From the IMG/VR virus record IMGVR_UViG_3300042542_000618, positions 1-32,095 of that record: a stretch of 32,095 bases of DNA, one strand, 5' to 3'. Made by a program: the position numbers and the translations under genes. The notes below the pieces were generated by a model. The model saw only the letters and a list, made by a program, of their open reading frames with translations, had not been told where the DNA came from and made no database searches. This document shows, one piece after another, positions 8,205 to 28,971 of the stretch. Each line of letters opens with the position of its first letter. Position 1 is the first letter of the stretch. The DNA is from a virus.

Positions 8205-9629
8205 ATGGCAACCATTAACCCATTCCAAGCACCAATCAATTACGCAGTTGATGTGCAAAGTCCATTTGAGGCCGCACTTAGTGGTTTGAAACTTGGTGCG
8301 GCAAGTGCAGAAGCACAGACACTAGCAGCAGCACGTGAAAAAGCAAAAACAACGCAAACAGGAATTGATGATTTTTTCAAGAAACCAGCCACAGAACGTA
8401 ATTACGCTGACATAGAACCTCTTTTGCTAGGGGCTAATAAACAGCAATTTGACGCATTGCAAGCTGTTGCCAAAAATATGGGTGAAGAAAAGTTAAAGTC
8501 ATCTCAGCGTTTTACTGGTCAATTACTTGTTGCTTTAGAGCAAAATCCAGATACTGCAAAAAAATTGTTAGAAGATCGCATAGCAGCGGAAACAGACCCA
8601 CAGCAAAGTCTTGCATGGAAAGATACTTTAAAAACAATAGATATATCGCCTAAAAAAGCCGCTGACACTGTTGAATTACTTGGTGCTGGAACTTTTGGAA
8701 AAGATTGGTACGAGGGCATTACCGCTGTTCGTAGATCGCGTGAAACAAGCGAACAAGCACCATCTAAATTGTCTGAAGCAGTTGCAAAAGCAGAGAAGGC
8801 TGTGTCTGATGCAAGCATAGCAAAATCGACAGCAACAAATGCACCAGCAGTAGCAAAGGCTGATGCAGATTTGAAAGTAGCACAAGCTGCAAAAGCTGCT
8901 ATTGATGCCAAATTTGCAGAGCGTGAAGCGGTTGATAAAATCATTAAAAATGCAGCAGACTTAGGCTTGACTAAAGCCCAAACTGGCTCGGCATTGGCGC
9001 AAACCAACAAACTTGGTTTGGAAAGTAAAAAAGCCGCAATCGAATTAGAAGCACTCAAGGCCTCTGGTGGAGTCGACCCAACAAAAACATTTGAGCAAGA
9101 AGAAAAATTGCGTAAAGAGTACCAAGGCCGCACTAAAGTATATGGTGAACTTGGAACGACATTTAGTAATATCAAGTCTTCGGCAGATGCAAAAACAGGC
9201 CCAGGCGATATTGCTCTGATTACTGGATTTATGAAAATGCTTGACCCAGGCTCAGTGGTGCGTGAGACAGAATTTGCAACTGCAAGGGATACTGCTGGTC
9301 TTTACGATAGATTGCTTAATACATCACAAAAATTGCAAAGTGGTCAACTTTTTACATTAGATTCAAAACAACGCACTGAATACGTCAATTTAGCAAAGCA
9401 ATATCTGGACTCAGCACAGAAAAAAGCAGGCGAGGATAAGAAGGCGCTTGGAGTGGTGGTTAAGAATTACAAACTTAACCCTGATAACGTGTTCGGGCCT
9501 GAGACAGCAGCACCTCCACCAAGTCCATCACCAAATAGTGTGATAGTTAACGGTCAGACTTTTAATCGCCCTGCAAACTTCACTGATGCTCAGTGGAGCG
9601 CATACAAGCAATCTATGGGGGTGCAATGA
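8205..9629 (+). CDS. DNA ejection protein, P22 gp20-like
   Basis: The 474-residue product is nearly the length of P22 gp20 (471). It is mostly helical and rich in Ala, Lys, Gln and Thr, with a coiled-coil-like middle (about residues 185-300) full of AKA and AEKA repeats. The N-terminal pattern SPFEAALSGLKLGAASAEAQ is typical of ejection proteins. The C-terminus is Pro-rich and ends with NFTDAQWSAYKQSMGVQ, echoing the SPEEW-type motifs at the start of the next protein. It follows the gp7-like gene by 11 bases and its TGA overlaps the next ATG. Confidence 0.75.
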   Translation: MATINPFQAPINYAVDVQSPFEAALSGLKLGAASAEAQTLAAAREKAKTTQTGIDDFFKKPATERNYADIEPLLLGANKQQFDALQAVAKNMGEEKLKSSQRFTGQLLVALEQNPDTAKKLLEDRIAAETDPQQSLAWKDTLKTIDISPKKAADTVELLGAGTFGKDWYEGITAVRRSRETSEQAPSKLSEAVAKAEKAVSDASIAKSTATNAPAVAKADADLKVAQAAKAAIDAKFAEREAVDKIIKNAADLGLTKAQTGSALAQTNKLGLESKKAAIELEALKASGGVDPTKTFEQEEKLRKEYQGRTKVYGELGTTFSNIKSSADAKTGPGDIALITGFMKMLDPGSVVRETEFATARDTAGLYDRLLNTSQKLQSGQLFTLDSKQRTEYVNLAKQYLDSAQKKAGEDKKALGVVVKNYKLNPDNVFGPETAAPPPSPSPNSVIVNGQTFNRPANFTDAQWSAYKQSMGVQ

Positions 9630-12013
9630 GTCCAGAAGAATGGTTGGCATCCCAGACTAGTCAAGCTGCGCCAGCAGTTCCTGCGCCTGCGCCTGCGCCT
9701 ACGGTTACAGCACCTACTGCGGCCCCAATGTCGCCCGAGCAATGGGCAGCATCACAGCCAAAAATGGGCTTCTTGGAAAGCATTGCTGAATCAATCACTG
9801 GTCGCGCTCGTGCAACACCTGAGACTCAAGCATTGCCTGAGTGGACAAGTATGCCTGAACTCAATCAAATGAGTGTTGCATCGTTTAAAACAGCACTTGG
9901 TTCATTACTTAGTAACCCAAAAGAAACAGTGCAGATTCTTCAATCTAATTTTCCAGGTGTTCAGGTTCGTCAAGATGCCAAAGGAAATTATTTGTTGCGT
10001 TCTTCGGTTGACTCAAAAGAATACGCAATACCGCCAGGCTTTACTATGGGTGACATCCCAAGAGCCGTTGGTGGTGTTGCCGCATTTACACCCGCAGGCC
10101 GAGCATTGACAATCCCTGGCGCTATTTTGGGTGGTGCTGCAACCCAAGCTATCATTGAAACAACCCAAGCGGCAACTGGTGGACAGTTCGATAAAGGCGA
10201 AGTTGCTGTGGCTGGTGCTACTGGCCCAGTTGGACAGATTTTGCAAAGAGCCGCACCCCCAGTTATCCAAGCTGTTAAGAAGGGCGTTCAGCGTGTTACA
10301 GGCAAAGCACCAGCAACAGGTGCAGCGGGCGCTCCAATGGGTACAGCAATGGCCCCAGAAGTACCTCCAGCAGCCGCAGTAATGCCAGAAATTGCACCAG
10401 TAGTTCCAGAGATTCCAGTCGTGCCAGTAGCACCAGTTGCGCCAATCGTGGCTGAAGTGACTGAAGAAGAAGTTGGTAACTTGGTTAAAAAAGCCGCAGG
10501 CACAGGTTTTGGTTCATCTGGCGCACGCGACCGATTGGCTGATCTTGCACAAGTTAATTTGGCGGCAAAGGAAGCGGCTGATCGACTTGGTATCCAATTG
10601 CCTGCCGATGTGTTCAGTGACAACCCACAAGTCCGAGCAGCGGCTGGTTTGACACGTTCTGTTGCTGGTGGTGAACCTGAAGCAGCATGGCGCAATACAG
10701 TAACCCAAGCTGTAGACAAAGCCGATGATGTAATAAAACAATTCGATGCTTCTTTTGTTGAAGGTGCTGTCGCGCCTGCTGTGGTATCGCAAAAAATTAA
10801 AGATTCACTCATTCAGCAACAAAAAACAACGGCTCAACAAGCAAAAGATTTATATACTGAGGTTGACTTAAAAGTACCAGAACAAACACTGGTAACTTTT
10901 CCAGAATTAAAAGCAAAGTTGGCAGAAATAACATCAAGACTAGGTGCAGAAGGTGTTGAAAAAAATGCAACCCTTAAAATGCTTAACAAAATGGTCAGCG
11001 ATGCCGATGCTGGCAAAGTACCTTATGGTAGATTAAGAGAAGAAAAAACCCTCATTGGTGATTCAATTAAGGGCGTGCAAAATGATTATTCAAAAAGCAC
11101 ATCGCAAGGCAGATTAAAAGAAATATATGGCGCATTGGCAAAAGACCAACTTGATAATGTTGAAAAATTAGCAGATGCAGAAGTCCGCCAAAAATTAAGA
11201 AGCGCAAATCTTTTAACCGCAAAAGAAAAAGCAATAGGTCAGCGCATTATTAATGCTTTTGGTCAAGATATTGAGGGAAGTTTAGGGTCAAAATTAAGAT
11301 CAGCCATCATCAGTGGTGGCAAAGGTGACACAGGCGACTTCAATCGTTTGCTCAAAATAGTACCAGAGGAGTTTCGTAAAGAAACACTGGCAACAGCATT
11401 GGCTGCGGCTACTAGATCGGCAAGAGGCGCAGAAAAAGGTGGCTTTGGGTTTTCTGAATTTGCAGAACTTTACCCAAAGCTGAGAGCCAATCCACCAGTT
11501 TACAAAACCATCGTAGATACGCTTGGAAAAGACTCATCAGACGTTTTGCGTGATCTATACGAAGTTTCCAAAAGAGTTACTGAAGCCAGAGCCAATGTTT
11601 TGACAACAGGAAAAGCAAACCAAGCATTGTTGCAAGGGATGCAAGCCGAAAGTCTGATTGGCAAGATCATGGAAAGCACACTTTCAAAAGGTGCATTAAC
11701 GGGTGCTGCGGCAATGGGTGGGCCTGTTGCGGCTGCTGCGACTTCAATAATTACTGGAGCAATGACTCAAGGTAATAAAGACTCGCTCAAAGCGGCAGGA
11801 AAATTATTTGCTGATGAGAGTTTTCAGAAACTTGCCATCGAAGCCGCAACTAAGGGAACACCAAGTGCAGCTAGCATTCGTCGCACAGCTATGTCACAAT
11901 CGTTCCAGAAATTCGCAGATGCAGCTAAACTGCCAAAAGAACTGGATGCAAGAATTCAATGGTTGCAGACAGCAACCCAAGCAGAACGCCAATTTGATCA
12001 GGAGAACCAATAA
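9626..12013 (+). CDS. Large ejection protein, P22 gp16-position
   Basis: The ATG at 9626 overlaps the previous TGA (ATGA) and follows a GGGGG run; an upstream in-frame GTG at 9593 is less likely. The 795-residue product starts MSPEEWLASQ, has an Ala-Pro linker, and repeats MSPEQWAASQ at residues 35-44. Next come a hydrophobic Gly/Ala stretch (about 155-190), a long Pro/Val/Ala linker (about 235-285), a helical body, and a second glycine-alanine hydrophobic segment (about 690-715). Such segments fit a protein that inserts into the host membrane during DNA entry. It sits where P22 has gene 16 (609 residues). I see no lysozyme or transglycosylase motif. Confidence 0.75.
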   Translation: MSPEEWLASQTSQAAPAVPAPAPAPTVTAPTAAPMSPEQWAASQPKMGFLESIAESITGRARATPETQALPEWTSMPELNQMSVASFKTALGSLLSNPKETVQILQSNFPGVQVRQDAKGNYLLRSSVDSKEYAIPPGFTMGDIPRAVGGVAAFTPAGRALTIPGAILGGAATQAIIETTQAATGGQFDKGEVAVAGATGPVGQILQRAAPPVIQAVKKGVQRVTGKAPATGAAGAPMGTAMAPEVPPAAAVMPEIAPVVPEIPVVPVAPVAPIVAEVTEEEVGNLVKKAAGTGFGSSGARDRLADLAQVNLAAKEAADRLGIQLPADVFSDNPQVRAAAGLTRSVAGGEPEAAWRNTVTQAVDKADDVIKQFDASFVEGAVAPAVVSQKIKDSLIQQQKTTAQQAKDLYTEVDLKVPEQTLVTFPELKAKLAEITSRLGAEGVEKNATLKMLNKMVSDADAGKVPYGRLREEKTLIGDSIKGVQNDYSKSTSQGRLKEIYGALAKDQLDNVEKLADAEVRQKLRSANLLTAKEKAIGQRIINAFGQDIEGSLGSKLRSAIISGGKGDTGDFNRLLKIVPEEFRKETLATALAAATRSARGAEKGGFGFSEFAELYPKLRANPPVYKTIVDTLGKDSSDVLRDLYEVSKRVTEARANVLTTGKANQALLQGMQAESLIGKIMESTLSKGALTGAAAMGGPVAAAATSIITGAMTQGNKDSLKAAGKLFADESFQKLAIEAATKGTPSAASIRRTAMSQSFQKFADAAKLPKELDARIQWLQTATQAERQFDQENQ

Positions 12014-25087: not shown

Positions 25088-25269
25088 AATGCCCAGAATG
25101 TGGAACATGGACAATCGTAAAAGAGACCAGAATAAGCACAGGAAATACACGCAGACGCAAGCTGGAATGTGCGAATGAGCACAGATTTACAACTTTGGAG
25201 ACCATCATTGTTTCAAAAACACCCATACGTAAGAAGCAAAAAACTTTTAAAACTGGTAGCAAGTCTTGA
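25084..25269 (+). CDS. Small zinc-ribbon protein
   Basis: The ATG at 25084 overlaps the preceding stop (ATGA). The 61-residue product reads MKCPECGTWTIVKETR, then NTRRRKLECANEHRFTTLET. Cys3, Cys6, Cys29 and His33 make a zinc ribbon like the start of NrdR (CPxCG...RRRxxC...RFTT.E), but with His in place of the last Cys and no ATP-cone domain. It may be a small transcription or DNA-contacting factor. Its last 95 bases also encode, in another frame, the start of the nuclease gene. Confidence 0.75.
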   Translation: MKCPECGTWTIVKETRISTGNTRRRKLECANEHRFTTLETIIVSKTPIRKKQKTFKTGSKS

Positions 25270-25531
25270 TTGTCAACTTTGCGGGTCAGGTCACTTTGTA
25301 CAAGCAGCACATACAAACTGGGGTGGGGGTAAGGGCAGAAGCATAAAAGCTGACGATAATTTGACTGCCGCACTGTGTATGACTTGCCATTACGACATTG
25401 ATGCTGGCGCGAAATGGTCTAAAGCTGAAAGACAGCAAGCATGGCAACTAGCGCACTTTAAAACAGTTCAGTTATTGGTCGATACTGGTCAATGGCCTGT
25501 TGACATTCCTATACCTGATATAGCAAAATGA
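25175..25531 (+). CDS. YbcO/DUF1364-like HNH nuclease
   Basis: The start at 25175 is seven bases after GGAA; GTG at 25169 is a less likely alternative. The 118-residue product has a zinc-stabilised HNH-like core: DCQLCGSGHFVQAAHTNWGG (32-51), with Cys33, Cys36 and His46, then LTAALCMTCHYDID (63-76), with Cys68, Cys71 and His72. KGRSIKADD between them is typical of the YbcO/DUF1364 group of prophage nucleases. It could nick or cut DNA in replication, recombination or packaging. The first 95 bases overlap the zinc-ribbon gene in a different frame. Confidence 0.75.
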   Translation: MSTDLQLWRPSLFQKHPYVRSKKLLKLVASLDCQLCGSGHFVQAAHTNWGGGKGRSIKADDNLTAALCMTCHYDIDAGAKWSKAERQQAWQLAHFKTVQLLVDTGQWPVDIPIPDIAK

Positions 25532-25591: not shown

Positions 25592-26389
25592 ATGAATCCA
25601 GCAGATAAAGTCGAAAAATGGGCGATTGATAAACTCATACCCTACGCACGAAACTCACGCACACACTCTGATGAGCAAATAGCACAACTTGCGGCAAGCA
25701 TTAAGGAGTGGGGCTGGACAACACCAGTATTGGTGGATGAGCAGGGTGGCATCATTGCAGGACATGGTCGTACACTGGCGGCTCAAAAGCTGAAAATGGC
25801 AGAAGTGCCTGTGATGGTAGCAAAAGGTTGGTCAGATGCAAAAAAACGGGCTTATATCATTGCTGACAATAAGTTAGCCCAAAATGCTGGCTGGGACAAC
25901 GCAATGTTATCTCTTGAACTTGAAGAGCTTGATGGTTTAGGTTTTGACATTGATTTAACTGGATTTACACCAGAAGAAATTACAGAATTAACATTTTTTG
26001 ATGACGATGATGAGCAAATTGACAACAGTAAGTACACAAAAAAGATAGATGCCCCAGTTTACTCACCATCTGGTGACTGTCCTGCCGTGAATGAACTTTA
26101 CGATAAAGTTAAATACGAGCAACTTACGGCAAAAATATACCAAGACCCTGAGATAAAGTCAGAAATTAAAGACTTTTTGTTGGCAGCGGCAGCACGACAT
26201 ATACGATTTGACTTTGAACAAATTGCAGAGTTCTATGCTCATGCTGACCCAGACACACAGCAGCTCATGGAAGACAGCGCATTGGTCATTATTGACTTTG
26301 ATAAGGCTATTGCTAACGGATATGTAAAGCTTTCACAAGCCATCAGTGATGTTTACGCCAGCGAAAAGGGTGAAGAACATGACGCCTAA
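25592..26389 (+). CDS. ParB-like nuclease-domain protein
   Basis: The start at 25592 follows AAGGAC; a longer frame would run through the terminator. The 265-residue product has a ParB/Srx-like N-terminal domain: IDKLIPYARNSRTHSDEQIA (12-31), SIKEWGWTTPVLVDEQG and IIAGHGRTLAAQKL (54-67, the GHGR box). After an acidic linker (DDDDEQ) a second domain (about 150-255) has YSPSGDCPAVNELYDKVK, AAARHIRFDFEQIAEFYAHA and SALVIIDFDKAI, a pattern common in phages next to DNA-modification genes. It may bind DNA and guide the glycosyltransferase encoded next, with which it overlaps by 11 bases. Confidence 0.78.
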   Translation: MNPADKVEKWAIDKLIPYARNSRTHSDEQIAQLAASIKEWGWTTPVLVDEQGGIIAGHGRTLAAQKLKMAEVPVMVAKGWSDAKKRAYIIADNKLAQNAGWDNAMLSLELEELDGLGFDIDLTGFTPEEITELTFFDDDDEQIDNSKYTKKIDAPVYSPSGDCPAVNELYDKVKYEQLTAKIYQDPEIKSEIKDFLLAAAARHIRFDFEQIAEFYAHADPDTQQLMEDSALVIIDFDKAIANGYVKLSQAISDVYASEKGEEHDA

Positions 26390-27284
26390 GAGCTTTGCCG
26401 TATTTATTCTGACGCATGGTCGGGCAAATAATGTTTACACTTACCAAAGTTTGCGTAAACAAGGCTATACAGGCAAAATTTACCTAATATGCGATGACGA
26501 GGATAAACAGCTCGATAAATACAAAGAAGTTTATGGCAAAGAATCTGTAATCGTTTTCAACAAACAAGAAGCGATTGATGCCACTGATAGCGGAGATAAC
26601 TTTAAAAAACGCAATAGCGTGGTCTACGCAAGAAATATCAGCTTCAAAATTGCAGCCGATCTTGGTCTAACGCATTTCTGGCAACTGGATGACGATTACA
26701 CAAGGTTTGATTACTCGACCAATGAAGAATTGCAGTACATCACATCTGAAAATAAGATCGGCAAGCTGGATGATGTCTTGGTGGCACTGATTGAGTTTTT
26801 AGACACAACACCGTTTCATTCGGTAGCATTTGCACAGGGTGGCGACTTTATTGGTGGTGAAGGTTGCGTATTACTCAGTAAGATGCGAAAAGATGAAATT
26901 TATCGTAAAGTAATGAATTCGTTTATGTTTCGTGTAGATCGCCCTGTTGAGTTCATGGGTCGAATTAACGAAGATGTGAATATGTATGCCGAATGGGGCA
27001 GGCGTGGCAAGTTGTTCATGACTACACCTCAGTTGCGCTTACAGCAAATCGTTACACAACAGAATGCCGGCGGCTTGACTGAAATCTACCTAGACCTTGG
27101 CACTTATACCAAATCGTTCTATTCAGTCATGTACGCACCATCGTGTGTGAAAATCTCAGAAGTAGGCACAAATGATAAACGGATACATCATCAAGTATCA
27201 TGGAAGCATACTGCGCCAAAGATACTGAGTGAGGAGCACCGTAAGCCAAGGGTGCTTTCACGTATTACAAGCACAGTTAAATAA
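26379..27284 (+). CDS. TET-associated-type glycosyltransferase (TAGT-like)
   Basis: The 301-residue product looks like a GT-A-fold transferase of the TAGT group, first described with phage TET/JBP oxygenases and thought to put sugars on modified DNA bases. Landmarks: FAVFILTHGRANNVYTYQS (6-24), IYLICDDEDK (34-43), FWQLDDDYTRF (100-110, the DxD metal site), FMGRINEDVNMYAEWGRRGK (192-211), QQNAGGLTEIYLDLGTYTKS (227-246) and RIHHQVSW near the end. The start ATG lies inside the end of the ParB gene. No TET or methylase is seen in the genome, so its substrate base and source are unclear. Confidence 0.75.
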   Translation: MTPKSFAVFILTHGRANNVYTYQSLRKQGYTGKIYLICDDEDKQLDKYKEVYGKESVIVFNKQEAIDATDSGDNFKKRNSVVYARNISFKIAADLGLTHFWQLDDDYTRFDYSTNEELQYITSENKIGKLDDVLVALIEFLDTTPFHSVAFAQGGDFIGGEGCVLLSKMRKDEIYRKVMNSFMFRVDRPVEFMGRINEDVNMYAEWGRRGKLFMTTPQLRLQQIVTQQNAGGLTEIYLDLGTYTKSFYSVMYAPSCVKISEVGTNDKRIHHQVSWKHTAPKILSEEHRKPRVLSRITSTVK

Positions 27285-27317: not shown

Positions 27318-27752
27318 ATGAAAAAAACAACTGAAATTTCCACCCAACTGCCTAAAAAAGAGGCAGATAAGCCAAAACAGAACGGTGGGGCACGAGAAGG
27401 TGCTGGCAGAAAACCATTTTTGCCTACTGATGCAGAGCGCAAACAAGTCGAGGCAATGTCTGGTTATGGTGTGCCTTTCGAGCAAATAGCCGCATTGGTG
27501 CGTGATGGCATTGATATTGACACACTGCGAAAATACTTCAGCCCTGAACTTATCAATGGCAAAGCCAAAGCAAATGCACAAGTTGGCCAGGGTATTTTCC
27601 AAAAAGCAATGGCTGGTGATACGACAGCACAAATTTGGTGGTCAAAGTGCCAGATGGGTTGGAAAGAAACCCAACGCCATGAACTTACAGGTGCTGATGG
27701 TCAGCCATTAGAATTTGCCAAGATTGAACGTATTGTTGTAAAACATGGGTAA
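27318..27752 (+). CDS. Terminase small subunit
   Basis: The 144-residue product has a basic N-terminal patch with NGGAREGAGRKP (22-33), then a small helix-turn-helix region (about 40-75: MSGYGVPFEQIAALVRDGID, then TLRKYFSPEL), the DNA-recognition part typical of small terminases. The C-terminal part has MAGDTTAQIWWSKCQMGWKE. It would select phage DNA and stimulate the large subunit. It has a strong CGGAGG site and overlaps the large terminase by eight bases. Confidence 0.83.
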   Translation: MKKTTEISTQLPKKEADKPKQNGGAREGAGRKPFLPTDAERKQVEAMSGYGVPFEQIAALVRDGIDIDTLRKYFSPELINGKAKANAQVGQGIFQKAMAGDTTAQIWWSKCQMGWKETQRHELTGADGQPLEFAKIERIVVKHG

Positions 27753-28971
27753 AACCCTAAAAATTCAGACCCCAGAGTGGGCTCTACCCTTGCTGGAGGG
27801 AAGGCGTTACAAAGGTGCATGGGGTGGCCGAGGTTCTGGCAAATCACATATGTTTGCAGAGCTGATGATTGAGATGCACATCATGAACCAGAAGCGCAGA
27901 AGCGTTTGTGTGCGTGAAATACAGAAATCTTTGAACCAATCGGTCAAGCGGCTGCTGGAAACCAAGATCGAGGCCATGAACGCTGGCGCTTACTTTGAAG
28001 TCCAAGATGCAGTCATAAAGTCCAAAAAGGGCGATGGTGCGATTATCTTTCAGGGTATGCAGAACCACACCGCAGACTCGATTAAGTCGCTAGAAGGTTA
28101 TGACTGCGCTTGGGTTGAGGAAGCCCAAAGCCTGAGTCAGACCAGTCTTGATTTACTGAGGCCAACAATCCGCAAGCCAAACAGCGAATTGTGGTTTACA
28201 TGGAATCCAAGGCAGCAGTCCGACCCTGTGGATTTTCTACTGCGTGGGCCAGAGCCGCCAACCGATGCGGCAGTCATCAAGGTCAACTTTGGTGATAACC
28301 CGTGGTTTCCGCAAGTCTTAAAAGACGAAATGGAGTACGACAAGCGCAGAGACCCTGACAAATATCAGCACGTTTGGATGGGTCAATATTTACGGAACAG
28401 CAATGCAAGAGTATTCCGCAACTGGAAAATTGACGACTTTGAAGCACCGCATGATGCCATCCACCGCCTTGGAGCTGATTGGGGCTTTTCAGTTGATCCG
28501 ACAGTTTTGGTACGCTGCCACATAATCGGGCGAACGCTCTACATCGACCACGAAGCCTATATGGTGGGATGCGAGATTGTTAATACTCCAGAACTGTTCA
28601 TGCAAGTGCCAGAGGCTGAGAAGTGGCCTATCGTGGCAGATTCAGCCCGACCAGAGACCATCAGTCACATGAAACGCAATGGGTTTCCAAAGATAATGAC
28701 AGCGGTCAAAGGGCCAAAGTCGGTCGAGGAAGGCATTGAGTTCCTGAAGAACTATGACATCGTGGTTCACCCCAGATGCATTCACACGATTGACGAGTTA
28801 AGCCTTTACAGTTATAAGTCAGACCCATTGACGGGTAGAATCCTGCCTGTGCTAGAAGACAAAAAGAACCATGTAATTGACGCACTACGCTATGCTTGCG
28901 AGGGTGTTAGGCGTGCAACAGTAACCAAAACGATTAACTTCACGCCATTGCCCACCATCAATAAATGGTAG
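27745..28971 (+). CDS. terL: Terminase large subunit (PBSX/Terminase_3-like)
   Basis: The 408-residue packaging motor has both domains. ATPase: Walker A GGRGSGKS at 27-34, Walker B-type CAWVEEA at 121-127 with the catalytic Glu pair, and coupling motif WFTWNP at 150-155. RNase H-like nuclease: Asp245 in GADWGFSVD, Asp299 in VADSARPE and Asp379 in HVIDALRYA. The arrangement resembles the PBSX/Terminase_3 group, not P22 gp2, although the head genes are P22-like. It pumps DNA through the portal encoded next. The short C-terminal tail past 390 is normal. Confidence 0.93.
   Translation: MGKTLKIQTPEWALPLLEGRRYKGAWGGRGSGKSHMFAELMIEMHIMNQKRRSVCVREIQKSLNQSVKRLLETKIEAMNAGAYFEVQDAVIKSKKGDGAIIFQGMQNHTADSIKSLEGYDCAWVEEAQSLSQTSLDLLRPTIRKPNSELWFTWNPRQQSDPVDFLLRGPEPPTDAAVIKVNFGDNPWFPQVLKDEMEYDKRRDPDKYQHVWMGQYLRNSNARVFRNWKIDDFEAPHDAIHRLGADWGFSVDPTVLVRCHIIGRTLYIDHEAYMVGCEIVNTPELFMQVPEAEKWPIVADSARPETISHMKRNGFPKIMTAVKGPKSVEEGIEFLKNYDIVVHPRCIHTIDELSLYSYKSDPLTGRILPVLEDKKNHVIDALRYACEGVRRATVTKTINFTPLPTINKW

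Follow-up and report, generated by a model that had tools for sequence, protein, structure and literature searches.

In phage T6, TAGT puts a second glucose on glucosyl-hydroxymethylcytosine without any TET enzyme (PMC13390438, PMC13216743), and a GT-A fold is predicted for the T6 protein too. By analogy, T6 TAGT offers a precedent for action of the family on DNA (PMC13390438). The preliminary description of the locus considered here took TAGT to be known from phages in which TET acts first; the same family does occur in TET systems, but that premise is too narrow, since the T6 enzyme works without TET. A 2026 survey found TAGT without either of the T-even glucosyltransferases in 288 of 753 phage genomes, leaving its role there open (PMC13216743).

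The window, by which we mean the whole 32,095-nucleotide stretch of viral DNA that was analysed, otherwise encodes an ordinary tailed phage, with YqaJ and ERF recombination genes, DUF932, replication genes, RusA, and portal, scaffold, major head and tail genes. As first described, a ParB-like gene and a TAGT gene overlap by 11 bp (26379-26389) and lie directly 5' of the terminase genes. The features of the locus are as follows.

25592..26389, + strand: ParB-like protein of 265 aa with two domains (ORF; PF02195, E 4.1e-7; phrog_620, E 1.6e-66, residues 4-249)
25592..26002, + strand: ParB/Srx-fold N-terminal domain, residues 1-137, putative exchangeable adaptor (AF2 model matches Noc/ParB N-domains; 74% identity to the ct3Oc712 methylase fusion)
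26033..26365, + strand: CT domain, approximately residues 148-258, probable TAGT partner (separate gene in other phages; co-occurrence)
26204..26218, + strand: CT residues 205-209, predicted contact with TAGT residues 208 and 276-279 (co-variation z up to 8.0; charge swap 209/276)
26379..27284, + strand: TAGT glycosyltransferase, 301 aa from ATG, GT-A fold (PF20691, E 2.8e-35; AF2 pLDDT 92; PDB GT-A matches); alternative start GTG at 26346
26688..26696, + strand: TAGT D104-D105-D106, presumed metal/nucleotide-sugar motif (99-100% conservation, 76 sequences)
27204..27242, + strand: TAGT C-terminal segment 276-288, predicted CT contact (co-variation)
27318..27752, + strand: small terminase, context (phrog_309)
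27745..28971, + strand: large terminase, context (PF04466, E 1.8e-32)

Directly 5' of the pair is an HNH-endonuclease/DUF968-like gene (25169-25528), and HNH-like genes recur near CT-TAGT elsewhere.

The TAGT protein scores 122.6 bits against PF20691 (cut-off 27.5) and covers positions 1-205 of the profile. Structure prediction of the proteins singly, which had been proposed as a check, yields a GT-A fold for TAGT, a Noc/ParB-like model for the ParB N-domain (7nfu, E 3e-6), which also keeps its GHxR motif, and a helical CT domain. Residues 139-165 and 231-260 of the ParB-like protein are modelled at low confidence despite conserved positions, as would be expected of segments that become ordered upon binding. 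Invariant residues of CT include Y148, P155, Y157, R202, Y215, Q223, E227 and D235. A fold search had been put forward as a guide to substrate class; it places TAGT with the GT-A enzymes, but the PDB matches include the protein glycosyltransferases GalNAc-T2, LH3 and SunS and so do not tell the acceptor class. Pfam searches of the ParB-like protein found no HTH_ParB match at a threshold of E 0.1 or, for its C-terminal half, of E 5. Repeated weak matches (E 0.006-0.2) of the middle of CT, at 26180-26290, to PF23887/phrog_690 (phage L5 gene 47-like) were below cut-off.

The search for gene pairs in the same order, also proposed earlier, found them in phages of E. coli, Lactobacillus, Nocardia and Haloarcula and at hundreds of metagenomic loci, a recurrence far beyond chance. 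TAGT relatives about 40-50% identical lie 3' of a ParB-like gene in Escherichia phages, Lactobacillus phages jlb1 and c5, Nocardia phage NTR1, Haloarcula virus HHTV-2 and a faecal phage, and these pairs are mostly directly 5' of terminase. The E. coli pair consists of 'ynaK' and a protein that RefSeq names 'GREB1-related' or hypothetical. Near-full-length copies (80% or more of the pair at a single site) are present in Rac-like prophages of 885 of the 5426 complete E. coli genomes (~16%); in K-12-type strains the match is confined to the initial 15% of the pair, a remnant. This short remnant may have misled the annotation of E. coli L73, where ynaK is recorded as an incomplete pseudogene, yet an intact 263-aa ORF (L216:8001-8792) overlaps the start of the TAGT ORF (8785-9717). 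Two further annotations are explained otherwise than recorded. The apparent ParB-TAGT 'fusion' family represented by phrog_18056 and phage Ld25A is a remnant: in Ld25A (L010:90-515, annotated as a ParB nuclease) an in-frame deletion links the start of ParB with the last 45 TAGT residues. The 'adenine-specific methyltransferase' of phage PMBT4 (L009:2238-3011) is a mis-annotated ParB+CT protein. A DNA-level search of plasmids gave no match, and a limited literature search found no report of DNA modification in HHTV-2. A literature search, likewise limited, turned up nothing on CT or the ParB-TAGT pair; earlier mention is possible, for example in Iyer et al. 2013 or Pyle et al. 2024.

Separate profiles for the ParB N-part, CT and TAGT were run across all loci, and collections were also scanned with CT only, to avoid circularity. 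Loci found by CT alone carried TAGT in 108 of 108 cases (32/32 bacterial genome loci and 76/76 viral loci), nearly always adjacent, with the caveat that the CT seed sequences came from TAGT neighbourhoods and that some contigs were shared between scans. With all scans pooled, both are present at 397 of 405 loci; the eight exceptions comprise six contig edges, one stretch without a full TAGT, and L236. The last had looked like TAGT without CT, a reading we rejected on finding its CT upstream of five TAGTs. Where there is enough sequence CT is directly 5' of TAGT at essentially all loci, and at one (L187) CofD-like and NTP-transferase genes stand between them. CT also exists apart from ParB, as a gene in its own right some 135-150 codons long, in Vibrio phage pv27 and on many contigs, and these stand-alone copies adjoin DNA polymerase and sliding clamp genes. 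Four other loci first taken to lack ParB (L044, L045, L047 and L051) proved on reading of the sequence to have a divergent ParB N-domain. In Porphyromonas phage 005a, CT and TAGT are both divergent together. Across the whole records of T6, Aeromonas phage 65 and Vibrio phage 1.124.O, which bear TAGT, CT was sought and none was found. Taken together, CT is very probably an obligate partner of this branch of TAGT.

The two proteins also appear to have evolved in step. Pairwise distances correlate at 0.52 for CT-TAGT and 0.22 for ParB-TAGT over 67 loci (bootstrap difference 0.22-0.39), the latter value being lowered by the faster evolution of ParB; the TerL-TAGT correlation is 0.23 (25 loci). Mean-field coupling analysis of 292 CT-TAGT pairs, at a modest depth of about 160-208 effective sequences and with shared ancestry controlled only in part, gave CT 208-TAGT 208 as the top coupling (z 8.0) and grouped CT 205, 208 and 209 with TAGT 276, 277 and 279. 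Twelve shuffles of the pairing reached z at most 3.1, although shuffling breaks shared ancestry too; a better control, from the same 225 genomes, gave top z values of 4.9 for ParB-TAGT and 4.4 for ParB-CT. The charges at CT 209 and TAGT 276 swap in step (E-K, E-R, K-D, R-E). CT and TAGT thus co-vary as if touching beside the active site, and because the coupled TAGT positions come after invariant D199 and the H270-H271-W275 stretch, CT probably sits on the acceptor side.

In contrast to this tight pairing, the ParB part appears from sequence comparison to be an exchangeable adaptor. The domain occurs in proteins annotated as DNA methylases in many phage records, and a Streptococcus phage encodes a ParB-DUF4417 protein. 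In phage ct3Oc712 a ParB domain 74% identical to ours (residues 2-133) is fused to N6_N4_Mtase in place of CT+TAGT, in a genome whose TerS, TerL and portal proteins are 71%, 80% and 72% identical to those of the window. It is mainly because the ParB domain and packaging genes are common to the two phages while the effector differs, methylase versus CT+TAGT, that we take DNA as the target; phage DNA is, in our judgement, rather probably the acceptor.

A census of neighbours at 298 unique pairs, with packaging genes and nucleases set aside, returned radical SAM (23), a second TAGT (15), cytidylyltransferase (13), NAD epimerase (12), sliding clamp (12), class I methyltransferase (5, mostly between CT and TAGT) and UDP-galactopyranose mutase (GLF; 3, or 5 loci in a first count). 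NTP transferase and, once, sulfotransferase are further sugar-side neighbours, and among the recurrent neighbours we recognised none that would produce an oxidised base. The neighbouring genes in relatives would on this evidence supply sugars, not oxidised bases. At the locus with a TAGT 77% identical to that of the window (L017), a radical SAM gene lies between TAGT and terminase. At L057, L058, L060 and L118 the class I methyltransferase (~255-280 aa) separates CT from TAGT. Operons with two or three TAGTs are seen at L107 (8224-11213) and at L096, L109, L112 and L116, the divergent copy usually lying between CT and the typical copy. On the 115-kb contig L236 (16077-21276) a stand-alone CT is followed by five tandem TAGTs with a cytidylyltransferase gene among them, an array that suggests a long sugar chain.

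Because of the co-occurrence, the direct-contact signal, the exchange of methylase for CT+TAGT and the sugar-supply genes in the operon, we lean, by a little, towards reading CT and TAGT as a two-subunit glycosyltransferase that acts on phage DNA before packaging. CT would be the obligate accessory subunit, docking on TAGT beside its active site; TAGT, nucleotide-sugar dependent, would transfer the sugar, with several copies working in series in relatives; and the optional ParB-family N-domain would serve as a DNA-side adaptor of the kind fused to DNA methylases in many phages. The modification, made ahead of packaging, would most likely shield the DNA from host nucleases.

An alternative that we regard as unlikely, although it survives best, is that TAGT glycosylates protein, either CT or the ParB-like protein itself, with CT as substrate, or another DNA-bound protein. 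Y148 and Y157, which with P155 are invariant within a low-confidence flexible segment of CT, could be acceptors; the protein glycosyltransferases among the fold matches fit this reading, and GREB1 is reported to O-GlcNAcylate protein (as cited in PMC12645433). The predicted contact between CT 205-209 and TAGT 276-279, however, is away from these tyrosines, the exchange with a DNA methylase in ct3Oc712 points to DNA, and the characterised T6 TAGT acts on DNA.

The two-subunit DNA glycosyltransferase that we favour raises the question of its acceptor base. The preliminary description had noted neither TET nor methyltransferase beside TAGT, and six-frame searches together with Pfam and PHROG scans of the window bear this out. 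Tet_JBP (PF12851) was found neither in the six-frame search of the window nor in the records scanned (0/25 and 0/25), a weak absence in that no positive control gave a match. C5-methylase (PF00145) was likewise absent from the six frames of the window and from CT-bearing records, and here control genomes did match. Thymidylate synthase/dCMP hydroxymethylase (PF00303) gave no six-frame match in the window, and Vibrio phage pv27 (191 kb) is the single CT-bearing record that has it. No methylase was detected when the early and packaging genes of the window were scanned, the search for N6/N4 methylases covering the scanned ORFs. No acceptor-making enzyme having been found, DNA glycosylation would require some further, first step. 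A base made by host enzymes, as had been proposed, is unlikely as a general answer because the module has archaeal, actinobacterial, firmicute, Bacteroidetes and proteobacterial hosts. Whether the module adds sugar to DNA never previously oxidised or hydroxymethylated, directly on a normal base or through a wholly new first step, is a prospect we consider improbable on present evidence.

CT itself might be that first step, activating or hydroxylating a base to which TAGT then adds sugar. The preliminary description had asked whether the second domain of the ParB-like protein was the missing partner; partnership is upheld by co-occurrence, stand-alone copies and co-variation, but the making of an acceptor base is quite doubtful. 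In its favour, CT phages are without detectable TET and, pv27 excepted, without genes of the thymidylate-synthase family. T6 and Aeromonas phage 65, by contrast, bear TAGT but no CT, and a gene of that family is present in phage 65; many of the invariant CT residues, moreover, are polar (R202, Y215, Q223, E227, D235). Against it, CT is a small all-helical domain in which we saw no dioxygenase-like Pfam or PDB match and no iron-ligand signature. Finally, modification of cell-surface glycan (serotype conversion), with the ParB part incidental, is very unlikely: sugar-supply genes are typical of phage surface-modifying operons as well, but the recurrent neighbours include no recognised membrane glycosyltransferase or flippase gene, the module is placed with replication or packaging genes, and its ParB adaptor is common to DNA methylases.

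CT marks one large branch of TAGT and offers a testable two-subunit mechanism, and the previously unnoticed E. coli prophage copies bring the module within E. coli genetics. Should the acceptor be DNA without prior oxidation, DNA would here be modified in a novel way, one likely to affect defence by restriction, CRISPR and DNA glycosylases; should neither oxidation nor hydroxymethylation come first, it would be a widespread DNA-modification route apart from the TET and hydroxymethylase pathways.

Among known systems, GREB1 is linked to the TAGT of E. coli prophages by the name 'GREB1-related' that RefSeq uses in some genomes, and differs in being eukaryotic and, as cited in PMC12645433, a reported protein O-GlcNAc transferase. 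Noc/ParB CTPase proteins share the predicted fold of the N-domain, but our protein has CT in place of a recognisable ParB HTH domain. The viral TET-TAGT hypermodification systems (Pyle et al. 2024, as cited in PMC13216743) use the same glycosyltransferase family; as far as that citation describes them, the module here differs in its CT partner domain and in having no detected C5-methylase or, by a weak search, TET. T-even TAGT (beta-glucosyl-HMC-alpha-glucosyltransferase of T2/T6, PF20691) is alike in Pfam family, GT-A fold and independence of TET, but the glucose that it extends is carried by hydroxymethylcytosine already formed as a nucleotide, and it lacks CT, whereas the phage studied here has CT and showed no hydroxymethylase in our searches. 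The ParB-DNA methylase fusions ct3Oc712 and AcaML1 gp25 have the same ParB domain (74% and 55% identical), and that of ct3Oc712 stands directly before the packaging genes, as here; their effector is an N6/N4 DNA methylase, in contrast to the CT domain and separate TAGT of this phage.
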